The notes below the pieces were generated by a model. The model searched no databases, had not been told where the DNA came from, and worked only from the letters and a program-made list of their open reading frames with translations. From positions 1-34,340 of IMG/VR virus record IMGVR_UViG_3300028025_002804: 34,340 nt of DNA, one strand, 5' to 3'. This document shows positions 13,980-30,819 of this stretch, piece after piece. Position 1 is the stretch's first letter. Each line of letters opens with the position of its first letter. The stretch is from a virus. The position numbers were made by a program, and so were the translations under genes.

Positions 13980-14465
13980 ATGCAAATACTCGTAGAACTA
14001 GAAGGCGTACTAAGAGGTCAAAGAGATGAACCTATAGCCGCTGGCATCATTCTAACCGCCCAGTTAGCCGCCTATAATCAAATCATTTTCATCACCGAAC
14101 TGTCTCAGGTTGAGGCAGAACAGTGGATTAACACCAACAAGGTAGTCGATTACGACCTGTTAGTTGATTCACACATTTCCCTAGTTGATGAGCCGTTGAA
14201 GCAACGGCAGTTAAAGTACGCACGTGCCAGAGGCAACGTAGACTTAGTTATCACTAATGACCCATCATTTTGGGCGTTTGCATTTGAGCAGGGCATCCCT
14301 TGCATGATGTTTGGTGTTCCCTCCTATACCCGCCCAGAGTTCCGCCCAGATGCCCCTAGAAGAGTTAGGGCATGGGCAGACATTGAAGCCGCCATTGCCA
14401 AGCAGAACGAACTAAGAACTAAAGACGTTCGTTTAACCCGTACTGAAACGACTAAGTTCGAATGA
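13980..14465 (+). CDS. HAD-like protein lacking the canonical aspartates
   Basis: N-terminal ILVELEGVLRG resembles HAD motif I (hhhDxDGVL) but has Glu at both acid positions (6 and 8), and DLVITNDPSFWAFAFEQGIPCMMFG at about 88-112 fits the last Rossmann strand and loop (motif IV region). HAD proteins are phosphatases or phosphoglucomutases; loss of the nucleophilic Asp suggests a binding or regulatory role, if the family is right. Stop overlaps the next start by 4 bases. Confidence 0.5.
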   Translation: MQILVELEGVLRGQRDEPIAAGIILTAQLAAYNQIIFITELSQVEAEQWINTNKVVDYDLLVDSHISLVDEPLKQRQLKYARARGNVDLVITNDPSFWAFAFEQGIPCMMFGVPSYTRPEFRPDAPRRVRAWADIEAAIAKQNELRTKDVRLTRTETTKFE

Positions 14466-15964
14466 TTGTATTCGGTGGCGTAGAGATTCCATCTAACCGA
14501 ACCCTGTTGGAACGTAATGGAGTTACAAATGTAATGTTAAATTACTGGGGTCTCCGTAAGCGTGGTTTGCCTAAGACTAAAGCGTATTTAATTGGCGAGC
14601 ATTTCCTCCCTGAGACTAAGGTATGGGTAGATTCAGGAGCCACCCAAGCAGACAAAGCCAACCTATCTAAAGCCGAATTAGAGGCGTATGCCGCTGATTA
14701 TGAAGAGTTTATTTCCCTGAACTATGACCGTATTGAAGGCTGGATTGAGTTTGATTCACAAGTTATGGGATTTGATTGGATTTTAAAACAGCGTGACGCA
14801 TTTGAAAATGACCCAAAGTTGTGGGTAGTTTGGCACGGAAAGTACGGAGCCAATCTGTTGCAGAGATGGGCATCAGAGTACCAGAACATAGCCATACCTA
14901 ATGACGCAATAGAAGCAACACTGAACCTAGCCACAATCACCAGAAACCTAAAGAGGTCTAGTGGAGTTAAGTTCCATGCGTTAGCAACAGCCAAGCCAGA
15001 TAATCTCCGACAGATTCCATTTGATACCACCAGCACCCTGTCATGGTTAAGTCCAATGCGTAGAGGCGAAACCATCATATGGGATGGTAGTAAACTGGTA
15101 CGGTACCCAAAAAGCATGAAAGCCCAAGCACGCCTCCGTTACAAATCCGTAGTAGAACGTGCAGGGTTAGATTTTCAGAAGTTCGTTTCAGACGACACAT
15201 TAGAGGCAACAAGAGTTGCAATATGGTCGTATTTACAGTTAGAGGCAAATGTGGACAAAGATAAACCAGACCTAAGAGTCATACAAGGTGGCAAAAAACC
15301 ACCAATAGTATCTGATAACAATGATGACACCCTATACAGTGGTTTGATGGAATTAGGGGGGGTAGGTTCTGATAACAGTGTGGTTGACATGCGGAATTTT
15401 GAACGTGCAGAAGTGGTGCAAAGAGACCCTCAAGAGATGACTGCCATGCCTGTTTTCGGGTATGAAATGAAGACTGTTGTAGAGAATCAAGATGGTCGTG
15501 ATGTACTAAAACAAGTACCAGTTGTGAACGCCCAAGGAGCAAGTTTACGTCAGTGCGACACCTGTTTTGTGGCAGCAAATTGCCCTGCATTTAAACCTCA
15601 AAACACATGTGCGTTCAACCTGCCAGTAGAAGTAAAAACACCTGAACAGTTGAAGTCATTGAACACCGCAATGTTAGAGATGCAAGCCCAGAGAGTAGCA
15701 TTTATGCGGTTTGCAGAAGAAACCAATGGTGGATACGCAGACCCTAACCTATCTCAAGAGATGGACAGATATTTCAAAATGTTAGAGAAGTTGAAGGCGT
15801 TAGATGAGAACAAAGAATTCATTCAAATCACCGCTCAACGCAGTGCAGGTCAGGGTGTATTGAGTGCCATTTTTGGTGACAGAGTTCAAGCCGCAAAAGA
15901 GATTCAACCAGTGATTTCTGAAGAACAAACCACCATGATTATCAAGCAACAGATGGAAGAATAG
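14462..15964 (+). CDS. TGT/DpdA-like protein with C-terminal Cys cluster, 500 aa
   Basis: Residues about 40-215 look like the TIM barrel of tRNA-guanine transglycosylases and phage DpdA: VWVDSGA (55-60), WVVWHGK, IAIPN, then FHALATAKPDNL (171-182) and IPFDTTSTLSW with D188, where TGT carries its catalytic Asp. DpdA inserts 7-deazaguanine bases into phage DNA. No preQ0 pathway gene (folE, queD, queE, queC) lies in this window. The C-terminal part has C365-x2-C368-x5-C374-x8-C383, suggesting a metal or Fe-S site, and a helical tail. Assignment rests on motif order seen by eye. Confidence 0.55.
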   Translation: MIVFGGVEIPSNRTLLERNGVTNVMLNYWGLRKRGLPKTKAYLIGEHFLPETKVWVDSGATQADKANLSKAELEAYAADYEEFISLNYDRIEGWIEFDSQVMGFDWILKQRDAFENDPKLWVVWHGKYGANLLQRWASEYQNIAIPNDAIEATLNLATITRNLKRSSGVKFHALATAKPDNLRQIPFDTTSTLSWLSPMRRGETIIWDGSKLVRYPKSMKAQARLRYKSVVERAGLDFQKFVSDDTLEATRVAIWSYLQLEANVDKDKPDLRVIQGGKKPPIVSDNNDDTLYSGLMELGGVGSDNSVVDMRNFERAEVVQRDPQEMTAMPVFGYEMKTVVENQDGRDVLKQVPVVNAQGASLRQCDTCFVAANCPAFKPQNTCAFNLPVEVKTPEQLKSLNTAMLEMQAQRVAFMRFAEETNGGYADPNLSQEMDRYFKMLEKLKALDENKEFIQITAQRSAGQGVLSAIFGDRVQAAKEIQPVISEEQTTMIIKQQMEE

Positions 15965-16119: not shown

Positions 16120-18156
16120 ATGGTTAACTTCTCCTTCAAACTTGCAGATGATTTCATCTCAGGATACAAGAACAAGAAAGCCCCATTCGGTTACAGCGAC
16201 GTTGCAGGAAACTCCGTAGGTGAGATTACATTCCTCCGCACTTATTCTCGTCTAAAAGCAGACGGCACCAAGGAAACTTGGTCTGAAGTATGTGAGCGTG
16301 TAATCAATGGGATGTACTCTTTACAAAAAGATTGGGCTAAGTCTTCACGCTTACCTTGGTCAGATGCAAAAGCAGCGGCTTCAGCAAAAGAAGCCTTTGA
16401 CCGTCTATTCAACTTAAAGTGGACACCTCCAGGACGTGGGCTTTGGGTTATGGGTACCGACATTGTGAACGTCCAAAAGAACTCAGCGGCTTTGCAAAAC
16501 TGTGCTTTTGTATCTACTAATGAAATGACTAAGAACAATCCTGCCAAGCCTTTCGGATTCCTTATGGAGGCTTCTATGCTTGGCGTTGGAGTTGGCTTTG
16601 ACGATAAGGGTGCAGACAAAGGTTTTGAAATTCATGAGCCTCAGGGAACTCAGGTCTACAACATTCCTGATACTCGTGAAGGCTGGCAGGAAAGCACCTC
16701 GGCTTTGATTAACTCTTTCTTGAAACCTGACCAATCGGCTTTGGAATTCAACTATGACGAAATTCGTCCTTACGGAGCACCTATTGCTACCTTTGGTGGA
16801 ACCGCTTCTGGACCTGCCCCACTCAAGAGGCTTCATGAGCAACTAGTCAAAATGTTCTCAGGTCGCAAAGGCGAAACTCTTACTCGTAAAGACATCGCAG
16901 ACATTGGAAACTTGATTGGTGTCTGTGTGGTCTCTGGAAATGTTCGTCGCTCTGCTGAACTGCTTATTGGTCGCATTGACGATGAGGACTTCTTGAACTT
17001 GAAGAACGCTGAACGCTTCCCTGAACGAAACTCTTACGACCCTGAAAACCCAGGATGGGCTTGGATGTCTAACAACTCTGTTGAGGTCTCTGTCGGAACG
17101 GACTTCTCTCCTATCGTAGACGGAATTGTCCGTAACGGAGAGCCTGGGGTTATCTGGATGGATACTTCTAGGGCTTACGGAAGGCTTGTGGATGCTCCAA
17201 ATAACAAAGACCACCGCATCATGGGCTACAACCCTTGTGCTGAACAGTCCTTGGAGTCTTTTGAAATGTGTACGCTTGTAGAGACTTACTTGAACAGACA
17301 TGATTCGCTTGAAGACTTCAAGAGGACTTTGAAGTTCGCTTATCTTTACGCTAAGACTGTGACTTTGCTTCCTACTCACTGGGAAGAGACTAACTCCATT
17401 ATGCAAAGAAACCGCAGAATAGGAACTTCTATCTCTGGTATTGCAAACTTTGCAGATAACAAGGGACACCATGTGCTTCGTCAATGGATGGATGAGGGCT
17501 ATAAAGTCGTCCAAGGCTACGACAAGACTTACTCTGAGTGGCTTGGTATTCGTGAGTCCATCAAGACTACTACTGTAAAGCCTTCTGGCACTGTCTCTAT
17601 CTTGGCTGGTGAGAGCCCAGGAGTTCACTGGACTTCTGGAGGAAAGTTCTTCAATCGGGCTATTCGCTTTGGAAATAATGACCCTATGCTTCCTCTTTTC
17701 AAAATGGCTAACTATCGGGTTGAACCTGCTTCTGAAAGCCCAGACACAACTTCTGTTGTCTTCTTCCCAATCAAGAGCGGTGCTTCTCGTTCTGAGAAGG
17801 ATGTCTCTATCTACGAGAAGATGGCTTTGGCTGCTACGGCTCAACGCTATTGGAGCGACAACTCTGTAAGCGTCACAATCACCTTCGACACAAACAAAGA
17901 GGCTGATGCTGTCGGAACTGTCCTTCACATGTACGACGGGCAGTTGAAGACTGTATCGTTCTTGCCTATGGGCAACGACACTTATCCGCAGATGCCTTAC
18001 ACGCAGATTACGGAAGACGAGTACGAGGCTTATGGTATGCAACTATTTCCTATTGACTTTGCGGGAGTTTACGCTGGTATGGCTTCGGACGCTATTGGCG
18101 AAGCGTATTGCACAACGGATGCTTGTGAGATAAAACTCATAAAGGATAACCAGTAA
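16120..18156 (+). CDS. nrdJ: adenosylcobalamin-dependent ribonucleotide reductase (class II, monomeric type)
   Basis: 678 residues of the Lactobacillus leichmannii RTPR type. Reduces ribonucleotides to deoxyribonucleotides using adenosylcobalamin. Seen: C128 (QNCAF), C373 in NPCAEQSLE as the thiyl-radical Cys with N371 and E375, C384 eleven residues later, matching the 408/419 spacing of the Lactobacillus enzyme; GGTASGPAPL; VSGNVRRSAELLIG; KPSGTVSIL. The C-terminal C664-x4-C669 is the redox shuttle pair. It needs no small subunit and works without oxygen. Own promoter and terminator suggest a single-gene unit. No cobalamin riboswitch is recognised in the short leader. Confidence 0.95.
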   Translation: MVNFSFKLADDFISGYKNKKAPFGYSDVAGNSVGEITFLRTYSRLKADGTKETWSEVCERVINGMYSLQKDWAKSSRLPWSDAKAAASAKEAFDRLFNLKWTPPGRGLWVMGTDIVNVQKNSAALQNCAFVSTNEMTKNNPAKPFGFLMEASMLGVGVGFDDKGADKGFEIHEPQGTQVYNIPDTREGWQESTSALINSFLKPDQSALEFNYDEIRPYGAPIATFGGTASGPAPLKRLHEQLVKMFSGRKGETLTRKDIADIGNLIGVCVVSGNVRRSAELLIGRIDDEDFLNLKNAERFPERNSYDPENPGWAWMSNNSVEVSVGTDFSPIVDGIVRNGEPGVIWMDTSRAYGRLVDAPNNKDHRIMGYNPCAEQSLESFEMCTLVETYLNRHDSLEDFKRTLKFAYLYAKTVTLLPTHWEETNSIMQRNRRIGTSISGIANFADNKGHHVLRQWMDEGYKVVQGYDKTYSEWLGIRESIKTTTVKPSGTVSILAGESPGVHWTSGGKFFNRAIRFGNNDPMLPLFKMANYRVEPASESPDTTSVVFFPIKSGASRSEKDVSIYEKMALAATAQRYWSDNSVSVTITFDTNKEADAVGTVLHMYDGQLKTVSFLPMGNDTYPQMPYTQITEDEYEAYGMQLFPIDFAGVYAGMASDAIGEAYCTTDACEIKLIKDNQ

Positions 18157-18172
18157 AGGAACACTAAAGGAG

Positions 18173-18206
18173 AACCCCCTAACCAGTAGGTCAGGGGGTT
18201 TTCTTA
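18173..18206. terminator. intrinsic terminator between converging units
   Basis: AACCCCCT (18173-18180) pairs with AGGGGGTT (18193-18200) over a 12-base loop and is followed by TTTTCTT on the + strand. This is a strong terminator for the reductase gene; the stem may also stop the long - strand unit ending at 18204, though the T tract there is interrupted. Confidence 0.85.
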
Positions 18207-18536
18207 TGCTTCTAGGATAGTGTTTTCGTCTACAAGACGAACGAGGTCTCTTCTGCCACCGCTTTCAATGAGCATGTTCAAGTACTCTTGGACACGAGTA
18301 GGAGACTTCCGTAAGATGTTGCGTTCCTTCATGGTAGTACCGCCCCAGATGCCCCACTCATTATTTCTCATGGCGTAGCCTAGGCAGGTCTCTACTATCG
18401 GACACTTGGAACAAACGGCTTTGGCTTCTCTTGTAATCTTTACATGGTCTTTACCCTCAGGCATGAACATCTCAGGGTCTTCACCAAAACATAGTGCCTT
18501 GGTGGTATCAAATAATGGTTCTTTATCTTTTGCCAT
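18204..18536 (-). CDS. whiB: WhiB-family Fe-S transcription regulator
   Basis: 110 residues with canonical C16, C42-x2-C45-x5-C51 and the GIWGG turn at 62-66 followed by TMKERN. WhiB proteins carry a 4Fe-4S cluster and act with the main sigma factor. Start at 18536 (MAKDKEP) is preferred to a longer in-frame start because GAAGAGG lies 10 bases upstream and the stop of the small gene before it is 2 bases away. Last gene of the long - strand unit that begins at the repeat near 23034. Confidence 0.92.
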   Translation of the reverse strand: MAKDKEPLFDTTKALCFGEDPEMFMPEGKDHVKITREAKAVCSKCPIVETCLGYAMRNNEWGIWGGTTMKERNILRKSPTRVQEYLNMLIESGGRRDLVRLVDENTILEA

Positions 18537-18538
18537 TT

Positions 18539-18673
18539 TTATTTTCCTCTTCTCATGGATTGTCTTAGTTGTGGCTTGATGAAGCCATACCAACGATTCT
18601 TAGCCCAAACAATGTACGCCCCAACAGGGTAGCGTAGCAGTCTGTACGATTGACGATGCCTAGGGTTGCTCAC
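18539..18673 (-). CDS. small basic protein, 44 aa
   Basis: GTG start at 18673 with a textbook AAAGGAG five bases upstream, inside the end of the regulator gene; it stops 2 bases before the WhiB start. The product (begins MSNPRHRQSYRLLRYPVG) is rich in Arg, Tyr and Trp and ends LRQSMRRGK. It fills a gap that would otherwise be empty. Unrecognised; perhaps nucleic-acid binding. Confidence 0.6.
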   Translation of the reverse strand: MSNPRHRQSYRLLRYPVGAYIVWAKNRWYGFIKPQLRQSMRRGK

Positions 18674-23004: not shown

Positions 23005-23033
23005 TTGTAATCCTCTCGGTTTGGTGTTGCCTC

Positions 23034-23073
23034 ATCATAAGGTCAGGACACTAACAGGTTGTTAGTTCCCAAA
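23034..23073 (-). promoter_or_regulatory. palindromic promoter repeat 1
   Basis: Reference copy. On the + strand: palindrome core ACTAACA-GGT-TGTTAGT at 23050-23066, flanked by GGAC and TCCCAAA; on the - strand, 10 bp past the core, TATGAT (23039-23034) resembles a -10 box, with TGAGGCAAC following. The palindrome covers the place where the -35 box would be, and no good -35 is visible, so a regulator (activator or repressor) binding it is likely. The layout (core, 10 bp, -10) is identical in 14 copies. Drives the unit from 22318 to 18204. Confidence 0.8.
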
Positions 23074-23082
23074 AGGTTTGGG

Positions 23083-23129
23083 GGTAGGGATGGCGGGTGC
23101 TGAGGAGGCATACCACTACCATCCCCACC
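23083..23129 (-). terminator. hairpin after the VWA gene
   Basis: GGTGGGGATGG and CCATCCCTACC (- strand; 23129-23119 and 23093-23083) form an 11-bp stem with one mismatch and a 25-base loop directly after the TAG at 23132. Downstream bases on the - strand run CCCCAAACCTTTT. Probable terminator separating the VWA unit from repeat 1. Confidence 0.5.
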
Positions 23130-23131
23130 TC

Positions 23132-25147
23132 CTAGTGAGCAAGGTGGCGGTCAATAGCCACTTGCACTAGGGAACGACCTAGGTGAACTAGGTCGCTGGC
23201 ATTACGGACATGGCTTACAATCTCTGCACCATGCAGGTTCTTCTCTTGCAGGTCAAGGTTGTAGTTAGCCAACCACGCTAACGAGGTAAGCACACCACCA
23301 TCTCGCATCTCTCGGATACTCTGCTCGCTTCGTTCTAGGGAGGATGCGTCCCACTCGCCATCAGTGATAACGATTAGCAACTTGATTGCACGATTGCTGT
23401 TCGCCAGCAAGCCCTGAGCATACTGCAAGGACTTCGTAGGGTTCGTGCTACCATGCACTCCGACATAGGTCATCCTGTCCCCAGCCCGTTCGTCAGGGCT
23501 GTAAATCATCATGTCGCTATCGCTATACCCAACAACACTTGTAGTGGCGTTGATTACATCCAAGGCTCTCTTGATTGCCCACATTGACTCGGAAGCCTGT
23601 CGTATCTGTCCACTCATTGAGCCAGACACATCCAGAAGCACTACTGCTTCAATGTCTGTGGCATCAGCCCTGCCGTTCTCGTAGCGGTCAAACGCTTCAT
23701 CAAACTCGCAACCCTGTTCCCAGCGAGAAGGGTTGATGCGACCAGTGTCTACTCGTCTGTGCCATGCAGGGTCAAAGTCTGCTCGTAGTCTTCTGAGTTC
23801 AGATGCAAATGCTTCTGCACCATCAACTGCTTCGGGAGATACTGGCTGTTGCTCGGCATACTTGTAGTGAGCAGGGTCAGGCAATCTCTCGCCTTCAAGC
23901 AAGATGTCTCCGTTGTAGATGTCTATGTCGTTGTTGAGTTTATCGTCAAGGCGTTCAAGGCTCTCGTCTAACTTGTTCTGCAACGCATCTTGAAGTTCCT
24001 TCTCTAACGCCTCTAACTCTTCATCAGAACTAGGGTTCTTGCTCTCGGTGTTGGTGTCTGTTGTGTGGTCATCAGCACCATCATCTGAGTCCGCTTCGCC
24101 CTCACTCTCATCATCTGAGTCTGAGTCTGAGTCTGAGTCTGAGTCATCTTCGCCCTCACTCTCGTCATCTGAGTCTGAGTCTGAGTTATCTTCGCCCTCG
24201 TCATCTGAGTCTGAGTCTGCCTCGTCATCTGAGTCATCATCCTCGTCATCTGAGTCATCACCTTCACCTGAGTCAGTGTCTTCGTCTGAGTCCCAGTCAT
24301 CCTCATCCTCATCCTCGTCATCCCAGTCCTCATCATCTGAGTCATCAGGGTTCACATCATCATAAGGTGAGTCATCCTCTTCCACATTCTCCGAAGCGTC
24401 CTTCTGCTTCTTAGAGGATAGGGGCTTGCTGTTGATGTCTGTGGTGTGTTCTGTATCAGACCTAACATCGTGTCCATGAGGGTTGTCCATGGTCAAGTCC
24501 TTAGTCAGTTCGTGATAACGAGCAACAAGGTCTTTACCTACCTCAGTGTCGGCAGGGTTGCTCATGTTCAATGCTCGGAACTGGTCAATGATGTCTTCAA
24601 GTTCTGCTACTCGGTCAGGGTAAAGGAACATGTCCCTAGCAATCTTGCGAACATTCTTGTCCAGATACTTACGACCATGGATAAGTGGGAACGCCATCTG
24701 GTAGTGGTGAGGCGTTGCCAGCAAGTAGTGGTTCATGGTCGCTTCAAACCAGTCTCGGATGCTCGGATACAGGGCTATCAACTGGCTCTCTATACGCTGG
24801 TCTTCTAGTGCGTTCCAAGCCTTAGACAAGTCTCTCTCAATGACCCAATCACGAAACTCCGAGCCAACACGAGGGCTTAGGAGGATGTGGCTAATCTCAT
24901 GCAAGGTAAGACCTTTGAGTGAAGCGACACCCTGCTTGGTAGTGAGGTCAGCGACTAGGTTCTCCTGAAACCAAATGCGGTTGGTGTCTGAGAACGCTGG
25001 TGCTGAACCAACTCTTGTGAGTTTCACACTTACAGGTCGCAAGGTGAAACTGGATGAGAATGATTGGATGACCTGAACCATACGAAGCAACCTCTCTCGG
25101 TTGCGGTCAGCCAACGCTTGCTTGTTCTGTTCCCAATGTATCTGCAT
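23132..25147 (-). CDS. VWA-domain protein with N-terminal HExxH (CobT-like partner of the MoxR ATPase)
   Basis: 671 residues. N-terminal part contains TLHEISHILL with H83-E84-x-x-H87, a zinc metallopeptidase-like motif. Residues about 265-370 are an Asp/Ser/Glu low-complexity linker (see repeat at 24104). The C-terminal von Willebrand A domain starts near 495 and has the MIDAS motif DVSGSMSG with D506. It overlaps the MoxR gene as TAATG, so the two are co-translated; MoxR-VWA pairs act together on metal centres or protein complexes (for example CobS/CobT of cobaltochelatase). The target is unknown. Confidence 0.85.
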   Translation of the reverse strand: MQIHWEQNKQALADRNRERLLRMVQVIQSFSSSFTLRPVSVKLTRVGSAPAFSDTNRIWFQENLVADLTTKQGVASLKGLTLHEISHILLSPRVGSEFRDWVIERDLSKAWNALEDQRIESQLIALYPSIRDWFEATMNHYLLATPHHYQMAFPLIHGRKYLDKNVRKIARDMFLYPDRVAELEDIIDQFRALNMSNPADTEVGKDLVARYHELTKDLTMDNPHGHDVRSDTEHTTDINSKPLSSKKQKDASENVEEDDSPYDDVNPDDSDDEDWDDEDEDEDDWDSDEDTDSGEGDDSDDEDDDSDDEADSDSDDEGEDNSDSDSDDESEGEDDSDSDSDSDSDDESEGEADSDDGADDHTTDTNTESKNPSSDEELEALEKELQDALQNKLDESLERLDDKLNNDIDIYNGDILLEGERLPDPAHYKYAEQQPVSPEAVDGAEAFASELRRLRADFDPAWHRRVDTGRINPSRWEQGCEFDEAFDRYENGRADATDIEAVVLLDVSGSMSGQIRQASESMWAIKRALDVINATTSVVGYSDSDMMIYSPDERAGDRMTYVGVHGSTNPTKSLQYAQGLLANSNRAIKLLIVITDGEWDASSLERSEQSIREMRDGGVLTSLAWLANYNLDLQEKNLHGAEIVSHVRNASDLVHLGRSLVQVAIDRHLAH
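24104..24345 (-). repeat. Ser-Asp/Glu coding low-complexity repeat
   Basis: On the + strand repeats of TCTGAG and TCATC units (for example five TGAGTC in a row near 24116-24147) encode the acidic Asp-Ser linker of the VWA protein. The hexamer runs leave open frames on other strands, which are by-products. Such tracts change length by slippage, so the linker length may vary between relatives. Confidence 0.8.
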
Positions 25148-26523
25148 TAGTTGCTCTCCTCTGTGATGTTTAGTTCCTGAGCAATGTTGCTCTTCTGTGT
25201 ATCAAGGTGCATAGCCACAGCCTCTCGTTCTTCTGGTGAGAAGTTGGCGAGGAAGCGGTTGATAGCGAACTGGTAGTTGTATGTCTTCGCTTGCTTGACG
25301 AAGTTCAACAACATACGAAGACCTACTCTGGTCTTGTGTCTTGCTGGCTCGGTCTTGGACAAGTAGCGGAGGGCTGTTGCAATCTCCAACAGGGCTGGGC
25401 TAGGTATCAACTGAGCCTCAATCTTCGGGTCATCCTCAAACTCCAACTTCACATTGAAGCGGTCAAGCAGGGCTGGGTCTTGCTGTCTTGTGCCAACATA
25501 CCTTGACCCGACATTCTGGTCTGCAATGAAGATAGTGTTTGGGTGAACAGGGATGACCTCGTTGAGTGTCTCAATCTGCAACTGCTTCTCTTCCAAGATA
25601 CCTAGGAACAGGGTTGAGTTGGCAGGAAGCATACGGCTAAACTCGTTGAGCAATACGATACCGCCATGTTTGATGATGGTGGCAAATCGTGAGTAATGCC
25701 AGTCCCAGCCACCCTTGCCATCAGGAAGCAAACGCCCCTCAGTTTCCGCCTTGGATAGTGAGCCGTCCATTTCCAAACGAACAAACGGAAGCCCCAGCAC
25801 CGAGGCTAGATTGACCACAGCCTGAGTTTTACCTACACCAGCCTCACCAGAGAACAAGAAGTTATCGCCAGAGGCAATACCACGAGTAAGCATGTCCACT
25901 TCGCCAATGCCGTCAAACTCCCGTTCAATGTGGAATGGCTTGGCAGGAACGCTGAGGTTAGCCCAAAGACGAGGTGCTTGACCAGATGTAATCATCTGTG
26001 CCACAGGTTCAGATGTTGTCCCAACACAAACATCTTCAACAGGTGTTTCAATCATGATAGGGGTGTCCTTTACGATAGCAACGGATGGTGCTTCATCAGA
26101 GCCAATGAACGCATTGCTCTTGGCGTATCTGGCTAAGTGATTAGGCTTGTGGTCAGCAGTTCTGCATACCTCACCGAACACCTCGTCAAAGGTGCTGATG
26201 TTGATGTCTGTCTGAGGCTGAACTGCACGAGCCAACTTCTGCAACAGAGTTGTAGGCTTGCCGAATAGTTGTAGGTCTCTCTCGTCATTGGCAGTCATGA
26301 AGACAGCGACAGGTTTGCCAAGCACGACATCCTTCTCGGCTTCAAGCCAAAGGTCAGCACGACCTAGACGGGACACTGGAAGCCATGCCCCAGCAGAGCC
26401 TCGCATCTTGGTTTCGTTGCCAAGAACACGAGTAAAGATAAACGGCTCGTCTCCACTAGGGATGACGGCAGTTTGGCGAATACCATGACTATCATGGTGA
26501 GATTGCATGATTACTGCATACAT
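25147..26523 (-). CDS. MoxR-family AAA+ ATPase
   Basis: 458 residues. A roughly 200-residue N-terminal part precedes the AAA+ domain: Walker A GEAGVGKT at 226-233, Walker-B-like GIVLLNEF about 282-289 (Asn where Asp is usual before Glu), sensor segment TIFIADQNVG, and GTRQQDPALLDRF typical of MoxR and CobS-like ATPases. It works as a hexamer that remodels a partner, here probably the VWA protein encoded next to it. Unit is started by repeat 2 with GAGGAGG before the ATG. Confidence 0.87.
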   Translation of the reverse strand: MYAVIMQSHHDSHGIRQTAVIPSGDEPFIFTRVLGNETKMRGSAGAWLPVSRLGRADLWLEAEKDVVLGKPVAVFMTANDERDLQLFGKPTTLLQKLARAVQPQTDINISTFDEVFGEVCRTADHKPNHLARYAKSNAFIGSDEAPSVAIVKDTPIMIETPVEDVCVGTTSEPVAQMITSGQAPRLWANLSVPAKPFHIEREFDGIGEVDMLTRGIASGDNFLFSGEAGVGKTQAVVNLASVLGLPFVRLEMDGSLSKAETEGRLLPDGKGGWDWHYSRFATIIKHGGIVLLNEFSRMLPANSTLFLGILEEKQLQIETLNEVIPVHPNTIFIADQNVGSRYVGTRQQDPALLDRFNVKLEFEDDPKIEAQLIPSPALLEIATALRYLSKTEPARHKTRVGLRMLLNFVKQAKTYNYQFAINRFLANFSPEEREAVAMHLDTQKSNIAQELNITEESN

Positions 26524-26556
26524 ACTTTGCCTCCTCAGGCTGATTGGTGTTGCTTC

Positions 26557-26596
26557 ACTATAAGGTCAGGACACTAACAGGTTGTTAGTTCCCAAA
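26557..26596 (-). promoter_or_regulatory. palindromic promoter repeat 2
   Basis: Core 26573-26589 (GGT centre), -10-like TATAGT at 26562-26557 (- strand). Leads into GAGGAGG and the MoxR/VWA unit. The gene upstream (26597) ends just outside the repeat with TAG rather than inside it. Confidence 0.8.
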
Positions 26597-27088
26597 CTAT
26601 TCCGTCCAGATGTAGTCATAACTTGTAGGTGCTACACCTGTGTCTTCTTCCCAACCGAACTGCGAATACCATGCGTAGTTCTTACATAGCAACGCTTGTC
26701 GGTGTGAAGAAGTTATGCTGTCCAACAGGTCTCCTTTATCCATCCATGACGGAAGAGGTGTTGGTTGTTCATCTCTTACGAGATTGAGGGTCAAGGCTCG
26801 TTCATAAGTGCGTTCAGCCTTGTCGTAGATAGTGGATTTATACCCACGAGACTTCCATTCAATGACCATAGCCCCAATGTATTCAAGCAAAGCGTCCTCG
26901 TGTCCTCGCCACATCTTTACGGCAGGGTGATTACGCCAGCCCTTAGGCTCTCGTCTGTTGCCCTCAGGGTCAAGAGCAAGGTTGGTCATCATAATCTGCC
27001 AGCCCTCTAAGGCTTGCTTGTTCAAGCGTTGGTTGTCCAACACTGAGGCAACCTTAGTGAAGTCAGCATACGGAAGAAATGTCTGCAT
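26597..27088 (-). CDS. MSMEG_6728-like pyrimidine dimer DNA glycosylase family protein
   Basis: 163 residues with the family's N-terminal MQTFLPYADFTKVASVLDNQ, R-L-N-K-Q, the GWRNHPAVKMWRGHEDALLEY segment at 50-71 and a C-terminal SHRQALLCKN stretch. This is the actinobacterial family related to T4 endonuclease V (pyrimidine dimer glycosylase); it would repair UV lesions in phage DNA, although family activity is inferred from relatedness. ATG at 27088 starts right after the TAA of the preceding gene, next to a half-palindrome. Confidence 0.82.
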   Translation of the reverse strand: MQTFLPYADFTKVASVLDNQRLNKQALEGWQIMMTNLALDPEGNRREPKGWRNHPAVKMWRGHEDALLEYIGAMVIEWKSRGYKSTIYDKAERTYERALTLNLVRDEQPTPLPSWMDKGDLLDSITSSHRQALLCKNYAWYSQFGWEEDTGVAPTSYDYIWTE

Positions 27089-27101
27089 TGTTAGTTCCCA
27101 A
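27088..27101 (-). promoter_or_regulatory. half-palindrome at a gene junction
   Basis: The + strand TTGTTAGTTCCCAA matches the right half of the promoter repeat, but no left half or -10 follows. It carries the -GN TAA end of the gene at 27091. Probably a remnant of a lost cassette boundary or a fusion of two cassettes. Confidence 0.5.
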
Positions 27102-27336
27102 CTTCATTAGGCTCGTCATAGGTTTCCTCAGGGTGAAGTGAGTTGCCCTCGCTATCAGCGAGACCCGTCTCTTCTGTCCAGAACTCAGGCAGGAAGTCAG
27201 CGTTATCGTCTATTAGTTCCCAATAATCTCCATGACCTGTCTCTGCTACGAGTTGGATAGCCTCAACAGCATTACTCGCTTCTACCTCTGTTTGATACCA
27301 GATTGTAGCCTTCTGTTGCACCTTGTATGTAGCCAT
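27091..27336 (-). CDS. small acidic EVEA-type protein, 81 aa
   Basis: Starts MATYKVQQKATIWYQTEVEA and continues with SNAVEAIQLVAETG, aligning with the protein at 28876 (YRIQQKATIWYETRVEADTPEQAIDKI): clear paralogues. Acidic Trp/Asp-rich second half. Start at the TAATG junction (27336), not at an upstream ATG. Ends EVGN from the half-palindrome. Confidence 0.7.
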   Translation of the reverse strand: MATYKVQQKATIWYQTEVEASNAVEAIQLVAETGHGDYWELIDDNADFLPEFWTEETGLADSEGNSLHPEETYDEPNEVGN

Positions 27337-27587
27337 TACTTCACCAACTGCCAAGTCAAATCGTCTAGCACTCTATCAAGTGATAGTTGGTTCTTGTCTA
27401 GCCACGCCTCAAAGTCTTCTGTGAGTGTCTGCTCAACAATGTCGTAGCCGTCATGGTCAGTGTGAGTGAGGATTACATGTTGCTCTTGACCCTGCCACTC
27501 AAAGTCAATGTCTCTTGTCCATGCTGTGTATTCATGGTCAAACAATGTGATTGTGATTGCTTGTGCTACTTCCTGCTCTGTAAGCAT
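27336..27587 (-). CDS. hypothetical protein, 83 aa; paralogue of the next gene upstream
   Basis: IDFEWQGQEQHVILTHTDHD then EQTLTEDFEAWLDKNQLSLD resemble SVWFKWRGTKQSCFMQVEDG and ETTYTDEFQEWLDEHLDEYD in the protein at 27587. So a tandem duplication. Predicted strand-turn-helix fold. TAATG start. Unrecognised. Confidence 0.65.
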   Translation of the reverse strand: MLTEQEVAQAITITLFDHEYTAWTRDIDFEWQGQEQHVILTHTDHDGYDIVEQTLTEDFEAWLDKNQLSLDRVLDDLTWQLVK

Positions 27588-27901
27588 TAGTTGTCCTCCT
27601 CGTCAAAGGTGATGTCGTATGAAGCAGGGATTAGATTGCCTACATCAAACATGTATTCAAGGCTGTCGTATTCGTCCAAGTGTTCGTCTAGCCACTCTTG
27701 GAACTCGTCAGTGTAGGTGGTCTCGGTGATTAGCCAATAGCCGTCTTCAACTTGCATGAAGCAAGACTGCTTAGTGCCACGCCACTTGAACCAGACACTT
27801 CTGCCAATGTTGCTACCCAACCAATCGCCCTCAATCCTAGTGAGAACTACATCAGGTATGAAGTCGTTGTTGTTTGGTGGTTCGTATTCGTAGTGTTTCA
27901 T
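27587..27901 (-). CDS. hypothetical acidic protein, 104 aa
   Basis: Start at 27901 follows GAGGAGG; an ATG at 27928 further up lies in the -10/leader of repeat 3 and is not used. Shares the F-x-W-x-G...EF-x-x-WLD core with the gene at 27336. Ends DEEDN at the TAATG junction. Unrecognised. Confidence 0.7.
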   Translation of the reverse strand: MKHYEYEPPNNNDFIPDVVLTRIEGDWLGSNIGRSVWFKWRGTKQSCFMQVEDGYWLITETTYTDEFQEWLDEHLDEYDSLEYMFDVGNLIPASYDITFDEEDN

Positions 27902-27926
27902 GTTTGCCTCCTCAGGCTGTCGTTTC

Positions 27927-27966
27927 ATTACAGGGTCAGGACACTAACACCTTGTTAGTTCCCAAA
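27927..27966 (-). promoter_or_regulatory. palindromic promoter repeat 3
   Basis: Core 27943-27959 with CCT centre instead of GGT; -10-like TGTAAT at 27932-27927. Drives the 27901 to 26597 unit. The stop of the upstream gene (27955) lies in the palindrome. Confidence 0.8.
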
Positions 27967-28203
27967 AGTTTCCTCAGCAATCTCGCTAACGATTGTGAAA
28001 TCAAACTCATCATTGTTCGGGTCAAAGGCTCGCTGGAACTCAGCCTCGTCCTGAAAGTAGAACCATACACGCTGGTCAAAGCCGTCATGCTTGGACAAGT
28101 CCTCATACAACTCAGGGTCGTTGAGGATAACAACCATAGCGTCAGTATCGCCAGCCACTTCCTCATCTTTCCAGATGTATTCCACCCAAGTAGTTCTCTC
28201 CAT
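27955..28203 (-). CDS. hypothetical acidic protein, 82 aa
   Basis: Rich in Asp, Glu, Phe and Trp (VEYIWKDEEVAGDTDAMVV; QDEAEFQRAFDPNNDEF). C-terminal TFGN-TAA is read from repeat 3. TAATG start. Unrecognised; one of the acidic proteins of this strand. Confidence 0.65.
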   Translation of the reverse strand: MERTTWVEYIWKDEEVAGDTDAMVVILNDPELYEDLSKHDGFDQRVWFYFQDEAEFQRAFDPNNDEFDFTIVSEIAEETFGN

Positions 28204-28442
28204 TAGTTCTCCTCCACAACCTCAATGGTAATCATGCTGTAAAGTTCATCACGATTTACGCCATTGTTGATAATCTCCCATAGTTCGTTTCGTAGGAGAG
28301 TAATGAGTTGTGTCTTAGGTCTAGGCACAAAGTCTTCGTCTTTGTCCTCGTCCTCAATCTCGTATTCATCTTCCCAATCAAGATAGTTGTTCTCGTCAGG
28401 AGTGTATTCAGCAAATACACCAACACGATAAGTTTTAGCCAT
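28203..28442 (-). CDS. hypothetical acidic protein, 79 aa
   Basis: A YLDWEDEYEIEDEDKDED segment makes it very acidic; then PRPKTQLITLLRNELWEII, a helix. Ends VVEEN at the TAATG junction. Unrecognised. Confidence 0.65.
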   Translation of the reverse strand: MAKTYRVGVFAEYTPDENNYLDWEDEYEIEDEDKDEDFVPRPKTQLITLLRNELWEIINNGVNRDELYSMITIEVVEEN

Positions 28443-28876
28443 TAGTTAGCCTCCTTAGGCTTGATTGTGTTTCCCCAGAAGTCAATGACTTCACCTAGGG
28501 TTGTTGCTTGGTCAAAGATTGAGTTGATGTCTATGATAATCTCCTCGCCCTTGCTGTTGATAGCAACTGCTATGCCATTGAAGTAGCGTAGTTTTTCGTT
28601 GCCTACCTCTTGAATAATCGCTACGGAGTTCTCTTGGAGGTGTCTAGCAAAGATAGCCGTCCATTCAATCTCATCTCCGTCAGCATCTTCGGTGTAGTAA
28701 TCGCACCAAGGGAAACTGCCGTCTTCACCTGTATCAGCAACGAACAGAGCAACGAACTCAGGGTTATCGTCCCTGCTTACAACTTCCAACGGGTAGTTTG
28801 CTACCTCGTTCTTGAACGCTTCAATGTCTTTGACCTTGAAGTAGTTGGTTCTCGCATTAGCGTAATAGTTAGCCAT
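28442..28876 (-). CDS. phage hypothetical protein, 144 aa (MANYYANARTNYF type)
   Basis: Start at 28876 (TAATG) rather than an upstream ATG at 28915. Begins MANYYANARTNYFKVKDIEAF; the last part (EKLRYFNGIAVAINSKGEEI) is strand-rich. Similar YY-x-x-AR-x-NYF proteins are a family I recall from phages and plasmids, with no known function. Acidic throughout, alpha/beta fold. Ends KPKEAN. Confidence 0.72.
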   Translation of the reverse strand: MANYYANARTNYFKVKDIEAFKNEVANYPLEVVSRDDNPEFVALFVADTGEDGSFPWCDYYTEDADGDEIEWTAIFARHLQENSVAIIQEVGNEKLRYFNGIAVAINSKGEEIIIDINSIFDQATTLGEVIDFWGNTIKPKEAN

Positions 28877-29073
28877 TAGAACTCGCCTTCTTCCTCGTTC
28901 TCGTCCTGCCACCAAAACTCGTCTTGGAAGTCAGTTGTATCTATGACTTGCCACCAATCTAAGTCAAGGTTGGTTTCAGGGTCTCGTATTTTGTCTATTG
29001 CCTGTTCTGGTGTGTCTGCTTCAACACGAGTTTCATACCAGATTGTAGCCTTTTGCTGTATTCGGTATTCCAT
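28876..29073 (-). CDS. small acidic EVEA-type protein, 65 aa
   Basis: MEYRIQQKATIWYETRVEADTPEQAIDKI matches the paralogue at 27091. The C-terminal half is Trp-, Asp- and Glu-rich (LDWWQVIDTTDFQDEFWW). First gene after repeat 4, with AGGAGG before the ATG. Confidence 0.7.
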   Translation of the reverse strand: MEYRIQQKATIWYETRVEADTPEQAIDKIRDPETNLDLDWWQVIDTTDFQDEFWWQDENEEEGEF

Positions 29074-29097
29074 GTCTGCCTCCTTAGCAGTTGTTTC

Positions 29098-29136
29098 ATC
29101 ATAAGGTCAGGACACTAACAGGTTATTAGTTCCCAA
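29098..29136 (-). promoter_or_regulatory. palindromic promoter repeat 4
   Basis: Core 29114-29130; GGT centre, with TATTAGT (one change) in the right half. -10-like TATGAT at 29103-29098. Leads to the 28876-27955 unit. The upstream gene's stop lies at 29126-29128 inside the palindrome. Confidence 0.78.
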
Positions 29137-29251
29137 GTTCTTCGTGTGTTCGTGATACATCTTTGTTCGTGGCATAGCAGTTGTAGCAGGTGTAGCCGTC
29201 TTCTATGAGGTCATCATCTAGTTCGGCACAATGGCAAGTTGTATCTTCCAT
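29126..29251 (-). CDS. small Cys-containing protein, 41 aa
   Basis: TAATG start with GGAGAAC. CHC at 6-8 and CYNC at 22-25 (TCHCAELDDD; YTCYNCYATN) suggest a small zinc site. Ends LGN-TAA within repeat 4. Unrecognised. Confidence 0.6.
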   Translation of the reverse strand: MEDTTCHCAELDDDLIEDGYTCYNCYATNKDVSRTHEELGN

Positions 29252-29607
29252 TAGTTCTCCTTTACTTCTTCAAGCGTCCCAACACAAACATCACAAGTGC
29301 CTTGGCACTCAGGTAGATAGGGGTCAGGCTTAGTCAGCACTCTAACTCTTTGAACATACATGCTGTCCAAAGATTGCTCGCCATGGCAAGACGGACATAG
29401 TAATCTGCCGTCAGTTGTAAGTGTGTTCTCGCCAAAGAAACGCCAGCAATCGCCACACTCCCAAGCATAGACAAGGTAGTCAGCCTCAGCCTCGTAGGTC
29501 TCAAACTTATACAGGTCTTCGTCATGGTGAGGACAGACGGCATAGTAATCAGGTGAGACATCATCAAATGAAACTTCTGTATTACAGCGATTACAATAGG
29601 TAGCCAT
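29251..29607 (-). CDS. multi-zinc-ribbon protein, 118 aa
   Basis: Cys pairs CNRC near 5, CPHH, CGDC at 51-54, CPSC at 71-74 and CDVC near 106 give at least two zinc ribbons. Acidic linkers. Start at 29607 (TAATG) rather than the upstream ATG at 29676. The VCVGT segment is encoded by a 15-base motif (29276-29290) found at other places in the window. Ends VKEN. Confidence 0.7.
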   Translation of the reverse strand: MATYCNRCNTEVSFDDVSPDYYAVCPHHDEDLYKFETYEAEADYLVYAWECGDCWRFFGENTLTTDGRLLCPSCHGEQSLDSMYVQRVRVLTKPDPYLPECQGTCDVCVGTLEEVKEN

Positions 29608-30029
29608 TAGTTGTTCTCCTCTGTGTAGTAGCAATCTTCGCATGACTTGTCTTCTCTTATGGTGAGGTGTTCGCATGACCCAAGGTGGATTGCTCGTTCT
29701 ACTGCCTCGGTGATGTTGCCAAAGATTTCATCACTCATGTCCATACACAACTCGTCATGGCATACCTCAAACCAAGGGTTGTTGTCCCAGAGCAACACGA
29801 GGCTATCACTAGCCTCAGCCACCTTATCGTCAGTGTCTAAGCCAACGCTGATGAAGTCGCTAGTGTATCGCAGGGTGTGTTCTTCGCCACTAGGGTCGGT
29901 GTAATAAACTCTCATCTCCCCAGCACGATAGACTTTGTAGCCATTACCCTCAGCCTCGTCCCACACTACTTCCATGTCGTGAGACCAAGTGTAAAAGATG
30001 TCGGTCTGTTGTTCAGGATTACCAATCAT
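29607..30029 (-). CDS. hypothetical acidic protein with C-terminal Cys, 140 aa
   Basis: Strand-rich N-terminal half (IFYTWSHDMEVVWDEAEG; YYTDPSGEEHTLRYTSDFISV); helical C-terminal half with CHDELCMDM and SCEDCYY cysteines. First gene after repeat 5, with GAGGAGG. Unrecognised. Confidence 0.7.
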   Translation of the reverse strand: MIGNPEQQTDIFYTWSHDMEVVWDEAEGNGYKVYRAGEMRVYYTDPSGEEHTLRYTSDFISVGLDTDDKVAEASDSLVLLWDNNPWFEVCHDELCMDMSDEIFGNITEAVERAIHLGSCEHLTIREDKSCEDCYYTEENN

Positions 30030-30046
30030 GTTTGCCTCCTCAGGTC

Positions 30047-30086
30047 ATTACAGGGTCAGGACACTAACACCTTGTTAGTTCCCAAA
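30047..30086 (-). promoter_or_regulatory. palindromic promoter repeat 5
   Basis: Core 30063-30079 with CCT centre; -10-like TGTAAT at 30052-30047, as in repeat 3. Leads to the 29607-29126 unit. The upstream stop (30075-30077) lies in the palindrome. Confidence 0.8.
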
Positions 30087-30263
30087 GGCTAAGAGATACT
30101 TACTTGCGAACGCCTCAGCCTCAGTAGGTGTATCGCATTGTTCGTGGAAGTCCCATACGAACTCTAAACCTCCGTTAGACCTCCGTCTATACAACGCCCA
30201 GCCACCAGCCCCGTTCCATTGAAGAACGAGGTCAGGTCTAGCGAGGATAGTGTAGCCCTCCAT
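30075..30263 (-). CDS. hypothetical protein, 62 aa
   Basis: Compact strand-rich start (YTILARPDLVLQWNGAGGWALYRRR), then helix (TPTEAEAFASKYLL) and AFGN-TAA read from repeat 5. TAATG start. Less acidic than its neighbours. Unrecognised. Confidence 0.65.
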   Translation of the reverse strand: MEGYTILARPDLVLQWNGAGGWALYRRRSNGGLEFVWDFHEQCDTPTEAEAFASKYLLAFGN

Positions 30264-30442
30264 TAGATTTCCTCTACCATGATGTCCCAGCGTCTATGAG
30301 TGAGGTCAATGCCCTCTTCGTCAAGGATACGAGACACTGCCAGCAACGCTAGGTCGTAATCGTCAATGTCTTCCTTGTCGCTATCAACGCTAGTTATAAA
30401 AGTGGTGCTGTCTGTGATTAGTGAGACGGAATAAGTCCTCAT
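30263..30442 (-). CDS. small acidic protein, 59 aa
   Basis: MRTYSVSLITDSTTFITSV then a helical DSDKEDIDDYDLALLAVSRIL and a short strand. TAATG at both ends, good coupling. Layout resembles the strand-helix EVEA proteins but similarity is weak. Unrecognised. Confidence 0.6.
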   Translation of the reverse strand: MRTYSVSLITDSTTFITSVDSDKEDIDDYDLALLAVSRILDEEGIDLTHRRWDIMVEEI

Positions 30443-30819
30443 TAGTTCTCCTCTGTGATGTAGGTGATTGCTTTGCTGATTGCCTCAGGGATTGTATTGC
30501 CCCAAGCCTCTTGTAAGAGTTCTTTGTCTGTATCGTAGATACTTGCCCTAAAATCGTTAGGGTTTTCGCTTACCAAATCAACCCAGATACTTACGCCCTC
30601 CAAAACGAACTTGTAGTCGTTGGTTGCTAGGTCAGGCTCGTCCTCTTCGTCTTCAACCTCTACGGACATAGCCTTAGCATAACTTTCCCACTCTTTTTCA
30701 GGGTCGTTTATCCAATCGTTAGCCTCTTGCTCAGTATCAAATGTTGGAGACCAACTTACAGGTATCCAGCCATAGCCAGACCCGTAATCTACATACACTT
30801 TCCAAACTACCTTGCTCAT
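30442..30819 (-). CDS. hypothetical acidic protein, 125 aa
   Basis: N-terminal strands VVWKVYVDYGSGYGWIPVSW, helix EQEANDWINDPEKEW, acidic linker EVEDEEDEPD, then a second strand region and helix (GNTIPEAISKAITYITEEN). TAATG at both ends. Unrecognised. Confidence 0.68.
   Translation of the reverse strand: MSKVVWKVYVDYGSGYGWIPVSWSPTFDTEQEANDWINDPEKEWESYAKAMSVEVEDEEDEPDLATNDYKFVLEGVSIWVDLVSENPNDFRASIYDTDKELLQEAWGNTIPEAISKAITYITEEN

Follow-up and report, generated by a model that had tools for sequence, protein, structure and literature searches.

The subject of this analysis is a pair of adjacent genes on a 34,340-base virus record from IMG/VR (IMGVR_UViG_3300028025_002804), a linear sequence that is probably a fragment and that we call the window. 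Both open reading frames (ORFs) have the coordinates given in the initial annotation and lie on the minus strand; one encodes a 458-residue MoxR-type AAA+ ATPase, and the other encodes a 671-residue von Willebrand factor A (VWA) protein with an N-terminal HEISH sequence, an instance of the HExxH motif. The ORFs share a single base at position 25147, where the stop codon TAA of the ATPase gene and the start codon ATG of the VWA gene are merged (TAATG). The pair and the element preceding it are arranged as follows:

26563..26596, minus strand: palindromic 34-nt promoter/operator-like element 5' of the pair
25147..26523, minus strand: MoxR-class AAA+ ATPase, 458 aa; beta-rich N-terminal domain (1-135) joined through a disordered link to the AAA+ domain (~190-450)
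23132..25147, minus strand: VWA protein, 671 aa; HExxH domain (~1-235), acidic linker (~230-400), pre-VWA segment and VWA domain with its metal-ion-dependent adhesion site (MIDAS; ~420-670)

The palindrome, which the initial annotation had also reported, proved to be real: when up to 3 mismatches were allowed, 12 copies of the 34-nt element were found in the window, and 0 are expected by chance. All of them are oriented as leftward genes would require, and they span positions 23040-34183 (e.g. 26563-26596 and 31032-31065). The core reads CTAACA-GGT-TGTTAG, and a TATGAT/TATAGT-like hexamer adjoins the palindrome in both copies compared (near 23021 and near 26544). This core pattern was absent from every other virus locus that we fetched, and the copies look like a phage-specific promoter/operator set. 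The next copy after 26563-26596 is at 23040-23073; the pair is therefore bounded by two copies. Given this position and the one-base overlap, co-transcription of the two genes is a reasonable inference.

The VWA protein and its resemblance to CobT

The VWA protein matches the VWA_CoxE family (E 1.6e-6). Its principal features are these:

24887..24901, minus strand: HEISH, residues 83-87, predicted zinc site; H83, E84 and H87 identical in 131/131 homologues
24788..24808, minus strand: LEDQRIE, residues 114-120, with a Glu as candidate third zinc ligand; E115 and E120 in 131/131, R118 in 130/131
23948..24460, minus strand: Asp/Ser/Glu-rich linker, residues ~230-400, predicted to be disordered; predicted local distance difference test (pLDDT) score mostly <50 at 260-369
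23615..23632, minus strand: MIDAS motif DVSGSM, residues 506-511, completed by Thr568 and Asp596; D506, S508, T568 and D596 in 128-130/131

Because the pattern used in the first VWA scan itself contained HE, the motif was recounted on partners found through the ATPase alone; HExxH was present in 49 of the 49 distinct VWA proteins chosen in this way. All 10 distant actinophage and plasmid relatives that were examined also have it, and they align over their full lengths (HHalign 100%, E 3e-41); these come from phage DSL-LC01, Microbacterium phages and the Gordonia phages Phendrix, Sixama and GMA2, along with two plasmid VWA proteins. The motif is likewise found in the deposited “CobT” proteins of Rhizobium phage RHEph10 and Microcystis phage Mae-Yong1326-1, both of which were checked. 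In the predicted model of the VWA protein (pLDDT 77.5), the N-terminal domain, which was searched as part of the whole protein, is a confident helix-sheet-helix arrangement with the HExxH located within a helix. The closest folds were the MIDAS domain of Rea1 (Z 21.3) and NorD (Z 17.4 over 217 residues), and NorD was the top Foldseek match. The N-terminal domain is probably a zinc-binding one that cuts or holds on to a protein, and its conserved residues, the HExxH with a downstream Glu as candidate third ligand, are those of a gluzincin-like zinc metallopeptidase.

How does this protein relate to CobT? The initial annotation likened the pair to CobS/CobT on the basis of their AAA+/VWA architecture. 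The comparison is a fair one, as CobS and CobT are among the closest cellular relatives of the viral family. The half of the VWA protein that carries the MIDAS is CobT-like, and the VWA halves of CobT and of the viral family are homologous (HHalign 96.4%, E 1.1e-9). Among solved structures, CobT also gave the VWA family profile its best match (E 8e-9), partly over the low-complexity linker. The CobT models returned no TIGR01651 match at E 1, and CobT_C scored 16.7 bits, under its cut-off of 21.

The HExxH was correctly judged to be unusual for CobS/CobT: none of 30 genuine proteobacterial CobT proteins has it, versus all 131 viral homologues. The N-terminal domain of CobT is colinear with the HExxH domain, but the similarity is weak (HHalign E 0.014; score 22.9 vs. 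at most 17.3 in the completed column shuffles). CobT has QMALR-like letters at the position of the HExxH and EQARVE at that of LEDQRIE. That the CobT domain might be a dead relative of the viral one is no more than a suggestion. We would raise only tentatively the broader possibility that the viral “CobT” proteins (those of the actinophages, RHEph10 and Mae-Yong1326-1) are active ATP-driven zinc proteases, with the protease situated on the adaptor and not on the ATPase, and that cellular CobT is a descendant or cousin devoid of the zinc site. The RHEph10 protein, deposited as “cobalt chelatase CobT” (L231:1016-3526), has a VWA half that is nearest to cellular CobT, yet its N-terminal part contains HEVAH; it may be an evolutionary bridge.

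The class of the ATPase

The ATPase matches AAA_5 (E 6e-15) and PHROG 249, and it has the following motifs:

25825..25848, minus strand: Walker A, GEAGVGKT, residues 226-233; kept in homologue alignments
25642..25665, minus strand: Walker-B-like GGIVLLNE, residues 287-294, in which Asn precedes the catalytic Glu; Glu294 invariant

An Asn at this place is common, as 37 of the 61 relatives with parsed Walker motifs have NE and 24 have DE. Residues 1-135 (MYAVIMQS...) constitute an extra beta-rich domain, assigned to no family, that many IMG/VR relatives share and that the Gordonia and Brevibacterium phage proteins lack.

Against TIGR01650, the curated CobS model, the ATPase scored 11.6 bits (E 0.11), far from the cut-off of 558.55 bits. 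The ATPase family profile matched midasin best, followed by CbbQ/NorQ (6e-32 to 2e-29), CobS (1e-22) and MoxR (9e-16). In the predicted model (pLDDT 84.7), the best matches were CbbQ2 (Z 22.6) and NorQ (Z 22.4), with root-mean-square deviations of 2.5-3.0 over ~240 residues, and the next family had a Z of 15; CobS structures were not among the matches of the fold search, so this ranking is no test against CobS. A quick maximum-likelihood tree, with supports from the Shimodaira-Hasegawa-like approximate likelihood-ratio test (SH-aLRT) and no bootstrap, grouped 30 phage ATPases in a clade of their own (support 97), apart from CobS (100), CbbQ/NorQ and MoxR, and placed plasmid ATPases with CobS (95). 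In the profile comparison that the initial annotation had called for, CbbQ/NorQ come ahead of CobS for the ATPase, and CobT heads the solved-structure matches of its partner. By sequence, the ATPase belongs to a viral clade of the MoxR superfamily and is neither CobS proper nor clearly NorQ/CbbQ. According to a study of cyanophages, the MoxR ATPases of phages fall within the CGN subfamily (PMC9964418).

The ribonucleotide reductase and the distribution of the pair

The initial annotation described the pair as lying beside a B12-dependent ribonucleotide reductase (RNR) and proposed that it might help cobalt insertion or B12 supply. The genes referred to in this section are as follows:

16120..18156, plus strand: class II (adenosylcobalamin-dependent) RNR (PHROG 367, E 2e-139), in a separate unit
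14462..15964, plus strand: queuine tRNA-ribosyltransferase-like gene (PHROG 887, E 5e-57), used as a linkage control
26597..27088, minus strand: pyrimidine-dimer DNA glycosylase, neighbour of the pair
18204-18593: WhiB regulator

The WhiB regulator and the nearest relatives of the RNR, which are in actinobacterial phages, point to an actinobacterial host. The RNR is indeed of class II, but “beside” is inexact: 5 kb lie between the end of its gene and the pair, the two are transcribed convergently, and the gene belongs to another transcription unit. The queuine tRNA-ribosyltransferase-like gene, whose product has no Pfam match, immediately precedes the RNR gene as part of a conserved block.

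Class II RNR was present in 75 of 91 related IMG/VR records (41/48 and 34/43) and in DSL-LC01, and it was convergent with the pair, at a distance of 3-10 kb, in all 97 fetched loci that show both. We first read the 75/91 co-occurrence as support for a B12 function. We dropped this argument because unrelated backbone genes are linked to the pair nearly as often in the same loci. Of 41 dereplicated loci whose flanks were long enough, 29 have the RNR, 26 the queuine tRNA-ribosyltransferase-like gene, 26 the glycosylase and 23 an uncharacterised 161-aa gene. The co-occurrence of RNR and pair is that of a conserved genome backbone, and in its association with the pair the RNR does not surpass other backbone genes.

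Other comparisons tell against that link as well. Neither class II RNR nor any RNR large chain was found in the six Gordonia/Brevibacterium phage genomes that carry the pair. Conversely, class II RNR is found in 1,205 phage records, of which those from Mycobacterium (686) and Streptomyces (305) phages contained nothing that matched the pair at E 1e-5; these sets include Gaia, whose RNR is nonetheless 58% identical to that of the window. The RNR of DSL-LC01 is 76% identical to the window's, yet the VWA proteins share only 21% over 126 residues. CobN was found in none of 45 related phage records. It was present in 43 of 198 sampled actinobacterial (Actinomycetota) genomes, a figure that is not decisive. 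With the CobS model so far out of reach, the ATPase outside the CobS clade and no CobN in the phage records, the proposal of cobalt insertion or B12 supply is not supported. Two records (L030, record G012; L052, record G032) lack class II RNR and have a class I small-subunit-like gene (PF00268) with no large subunit in the record. A swap of class I for class II RNR with the pair retained was considered; neither record has a large chain, and we do not claim such a swap.

Scans of IMG/VR with either window protein singly returned no matches, and alignment-based scans were needed; these recovered 145 VWA relatives and 57 ATPase relatives. The genes were adjacent in the order ATPase-VWA in 139 of the 146 loci holding both, far above chance, and the order was the same in 6/6 of the Gordonia/Brevibacterium phages. 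A scan of 84,980 cellular genomes with a 7-sequence alignment found only two loci: one (L152) has primase, DnaB and DnaE around the pair in a phage-like replication layout, and the other (L153) is a 5.7-kb contig. At the sensitivity of these scans, the family is essentially viral. The replication block, which encodes primase, helicase, single-stranded DNA-binding protein and DnaE, is where the pair is found in the Gordonia/Brevibacterium phages, and the haloarchaeal virus Hardycor1 likewise has it in the replication block (PMC7911831).

Related genes occur on conjugative plasmids of the MOBH/IncC type, three loci of which (L147, L148 and L149) have an AAA ATPase, DUF3150 and a VWA protein beside RecT/exonuclease or transfer genes. 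Both plasmid VWA proteins that were checked (L148 and L149) contain HExxH. The cluster on a Comamonas plasmid is similar, though longer. We found no literature on DUF3150, and the function of the AAA-DUF3150-VWA cluster is apparently unstudied.

A proposed remodelling machine, its rivals and known systems

We favor, at a probability of roughly 0.55, the view that the pair is a viral MoxR-class ATP-driven remodelling machine of the NorQD/CbbQO/midasin kind whose adaptor bears a metallopeptidase. The evidence is in line with an alternative already offered in the initial annotation, that of a protein-remodelling machine. It consists of the pairing of the genes, the invariant HExxH...E and MIDAS residues, and the predicted folds, NorQ/CbbQ-type for the ATPase and NorD/Rea1-type for the VWA protein. 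In such a machine, a hexameric AAA+ ATPase and a VWA/MIDAS adaptor would work as they do in NorQD, CbbQO and midasin, and the N-terminal domain of the adaptor would bind zinc and cleave or grip protein. ATP-driven movement would deliver or unfold a client next to the peptidase domain; tethered by the long acidic linker, this domain would then have the remodelled protein as its target. In structures of NorQD, a VWA finger occupies the ATPase pore and the linker twists (PMC13036017); coupling of this type through the pre-VWA segment is plausible here because a conserved SGRLNxxR is kept in the region of the phage VWA protein that aligns with NorD. The client is more likely to be a protein, whether the host's or the phage's, that belongs to the replication/takeover phase, when the machine would presumably act, than a cobalt chelatase, since the pair lies among replication and nucleotide-metabolism genes in relatives where its surroundings are visible.

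Several considerations weigh against this view. The case is built on sequence and predicted structure, and the structural matches of the whole VWA protein are dominated by its VWA domain, not by the N-terminal domain. Location in a replication block is no proof of early expression or of function. In related conflict systems, moreover, many VWA-fused peptidase-like domains are catalytically dead (PMC7159879), whereas the motif of the present family is invariant.

That last point raises the alternative of an inactive HExxH domain, in which the metal site is structural and the pair is purely a chaperone. In some VWA-MoxR systems the peptidase domains are often dead, and CobT shows that the domain may lose its site; however, a structural site would not need the catalytic Glu, which is as invariant as the two His residues (131/131), and we hold this alternative to be very doubtful. 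An unlikely, though better-grounded, explanation is a chaperone of virion assembly or maturation that processes structural proteins proteolytically. Virion assembly has been proposed explicitly for a jumbo-phage pair of the same architecture (Iyer et al. 2021; PMC7824862), and a role of this kind has been demonstrated in Acidianus two-tailed virus (ATV) for its tails; ORF892 of ATV was among the viral structural matches. Against it, the pair occupies the replication block and not the structural block of the complete Gordonia/Brevibacterium genomes, as it does in Hardycor1, which is a mild argument; also, no recognised structural gene adjoins it in the window, where many ORFs have no assignment.

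Could the pair still serve cobalamin? In the published proposal on viral cobST (Liu et al. 2021; PMC8651126), phage CobS/CobT would join host CobN, insert cobalt and, here, feed the phage RNR. The match of the VWA profile to CobT and the frequent, invariably convergent RNR agree with this idea. We nevertheless find it improbable, given the HExxH that CobT lacks, the clade of the ATPase, the absence of CobN from the 45 phage records and its presence in only 43 of the 198 sampled actinobacterial genomes, a linkage to RNR hardly above that of the tRNA-modification gene and the glycosylase, and the phages that have either the pair or the class II RNR without the other. MoxR-VWA pairs activate metalloenzymes, and on the model of CbbQO, an activase of rubisco, and of NorQD, which serves metal insertion, the pair might be a maturase or reactivase of the phage RNR that, for example, expels damaged cobalamin. 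The strong synteny with RNR in the lineage of the window would fit; yet the pair is kept in six complete genomes without any RNR large chain, the histories of RNR and VWA protein differ in DSL-LC01, and the peptidase site would be left unexplained, all of which makes such a role highly improbable. On an anti-defence machine, a further alternative in the initial annotation, our data are neutral.

The pair is thus real and conserved, but its kind has been described before. Ecological claims depend on the usual practice of listing viral “cobS/cobT” among the auxiliary metabolic genes for B12; phage proteins deposited as “CobT” nonetheless keep an intact protease signature that CobT is without, and the family is widely misnamed. 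Two published readings, cobalamin supply and a chaperone-peptidase, are in conflict. Three new points make the conflict testable: the protease signature is invariant, CobT does not have it, and the linkage of the RNR was set against that of other backbone genes.

With respect to known systems, the jumbo-phage pair of Iyer et al. comes from tailed phages and, like that of the window, has a MoxR ATPase adjoining a VWA protein whose N-terminal domain is of the metallopeptidase type. The window pair is from an actinobacterial phage, and its likeness to ASV44728/ASV44729 is one of architecture. Liu et al. reported viral cobST to be widespread, proposed that host CobN is hijacked and called the peptidase annotation a mistake. 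The CobS/CobT of haloarchaeal tailed viruses and cyanophages are also ATPase-VWA pairs, and the VWA model of the window matches the VWA proteins of HVTV-1, HCTV-2 and HHTV-2; theirs were published as cobalamin genes, while in the present family the HExxH is invariant and B12 links are unsupported. Our data favor the architecture of Iyer et al. over the cobalamin reading. Cellular CobS/CobT differ from the viral pair in that CobT has no HExxH, CobS forms a separate ATPase clade, and the phage records have no CobN.

The CobT-like and AAA-ATPase genes of Gordonia, Brevibacterium and Microbacterium phages (GenBank, SEA-PHAGES) encode full-length homologues with HExxH and MIDAS, and the gene order in the Gordonia/Brevibacterium phages is identical. 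They are 26-31% identical to the window proteins, the six genomes tested are without class II RNR, and their ATPase has no extra N-terminal domain. NorQ/NorD and CbbQ/CbbO (CGN subfamily) provide the closest solved ATPase folds, and the VWA domain of NorD is among the closest to the partner; by contrast, the viral ATPase is a separate clade, and the NorD/CbbO partners are tied to metalloenzymes of respiration or to rubisco. The MOBH/IncC triad comprises the same ATPase/HExxH-VWA module, likewise on mobile elements and beside recombination genes, but the plasmids have the extra DUF3150 gene, and their ATPases group with CobS.

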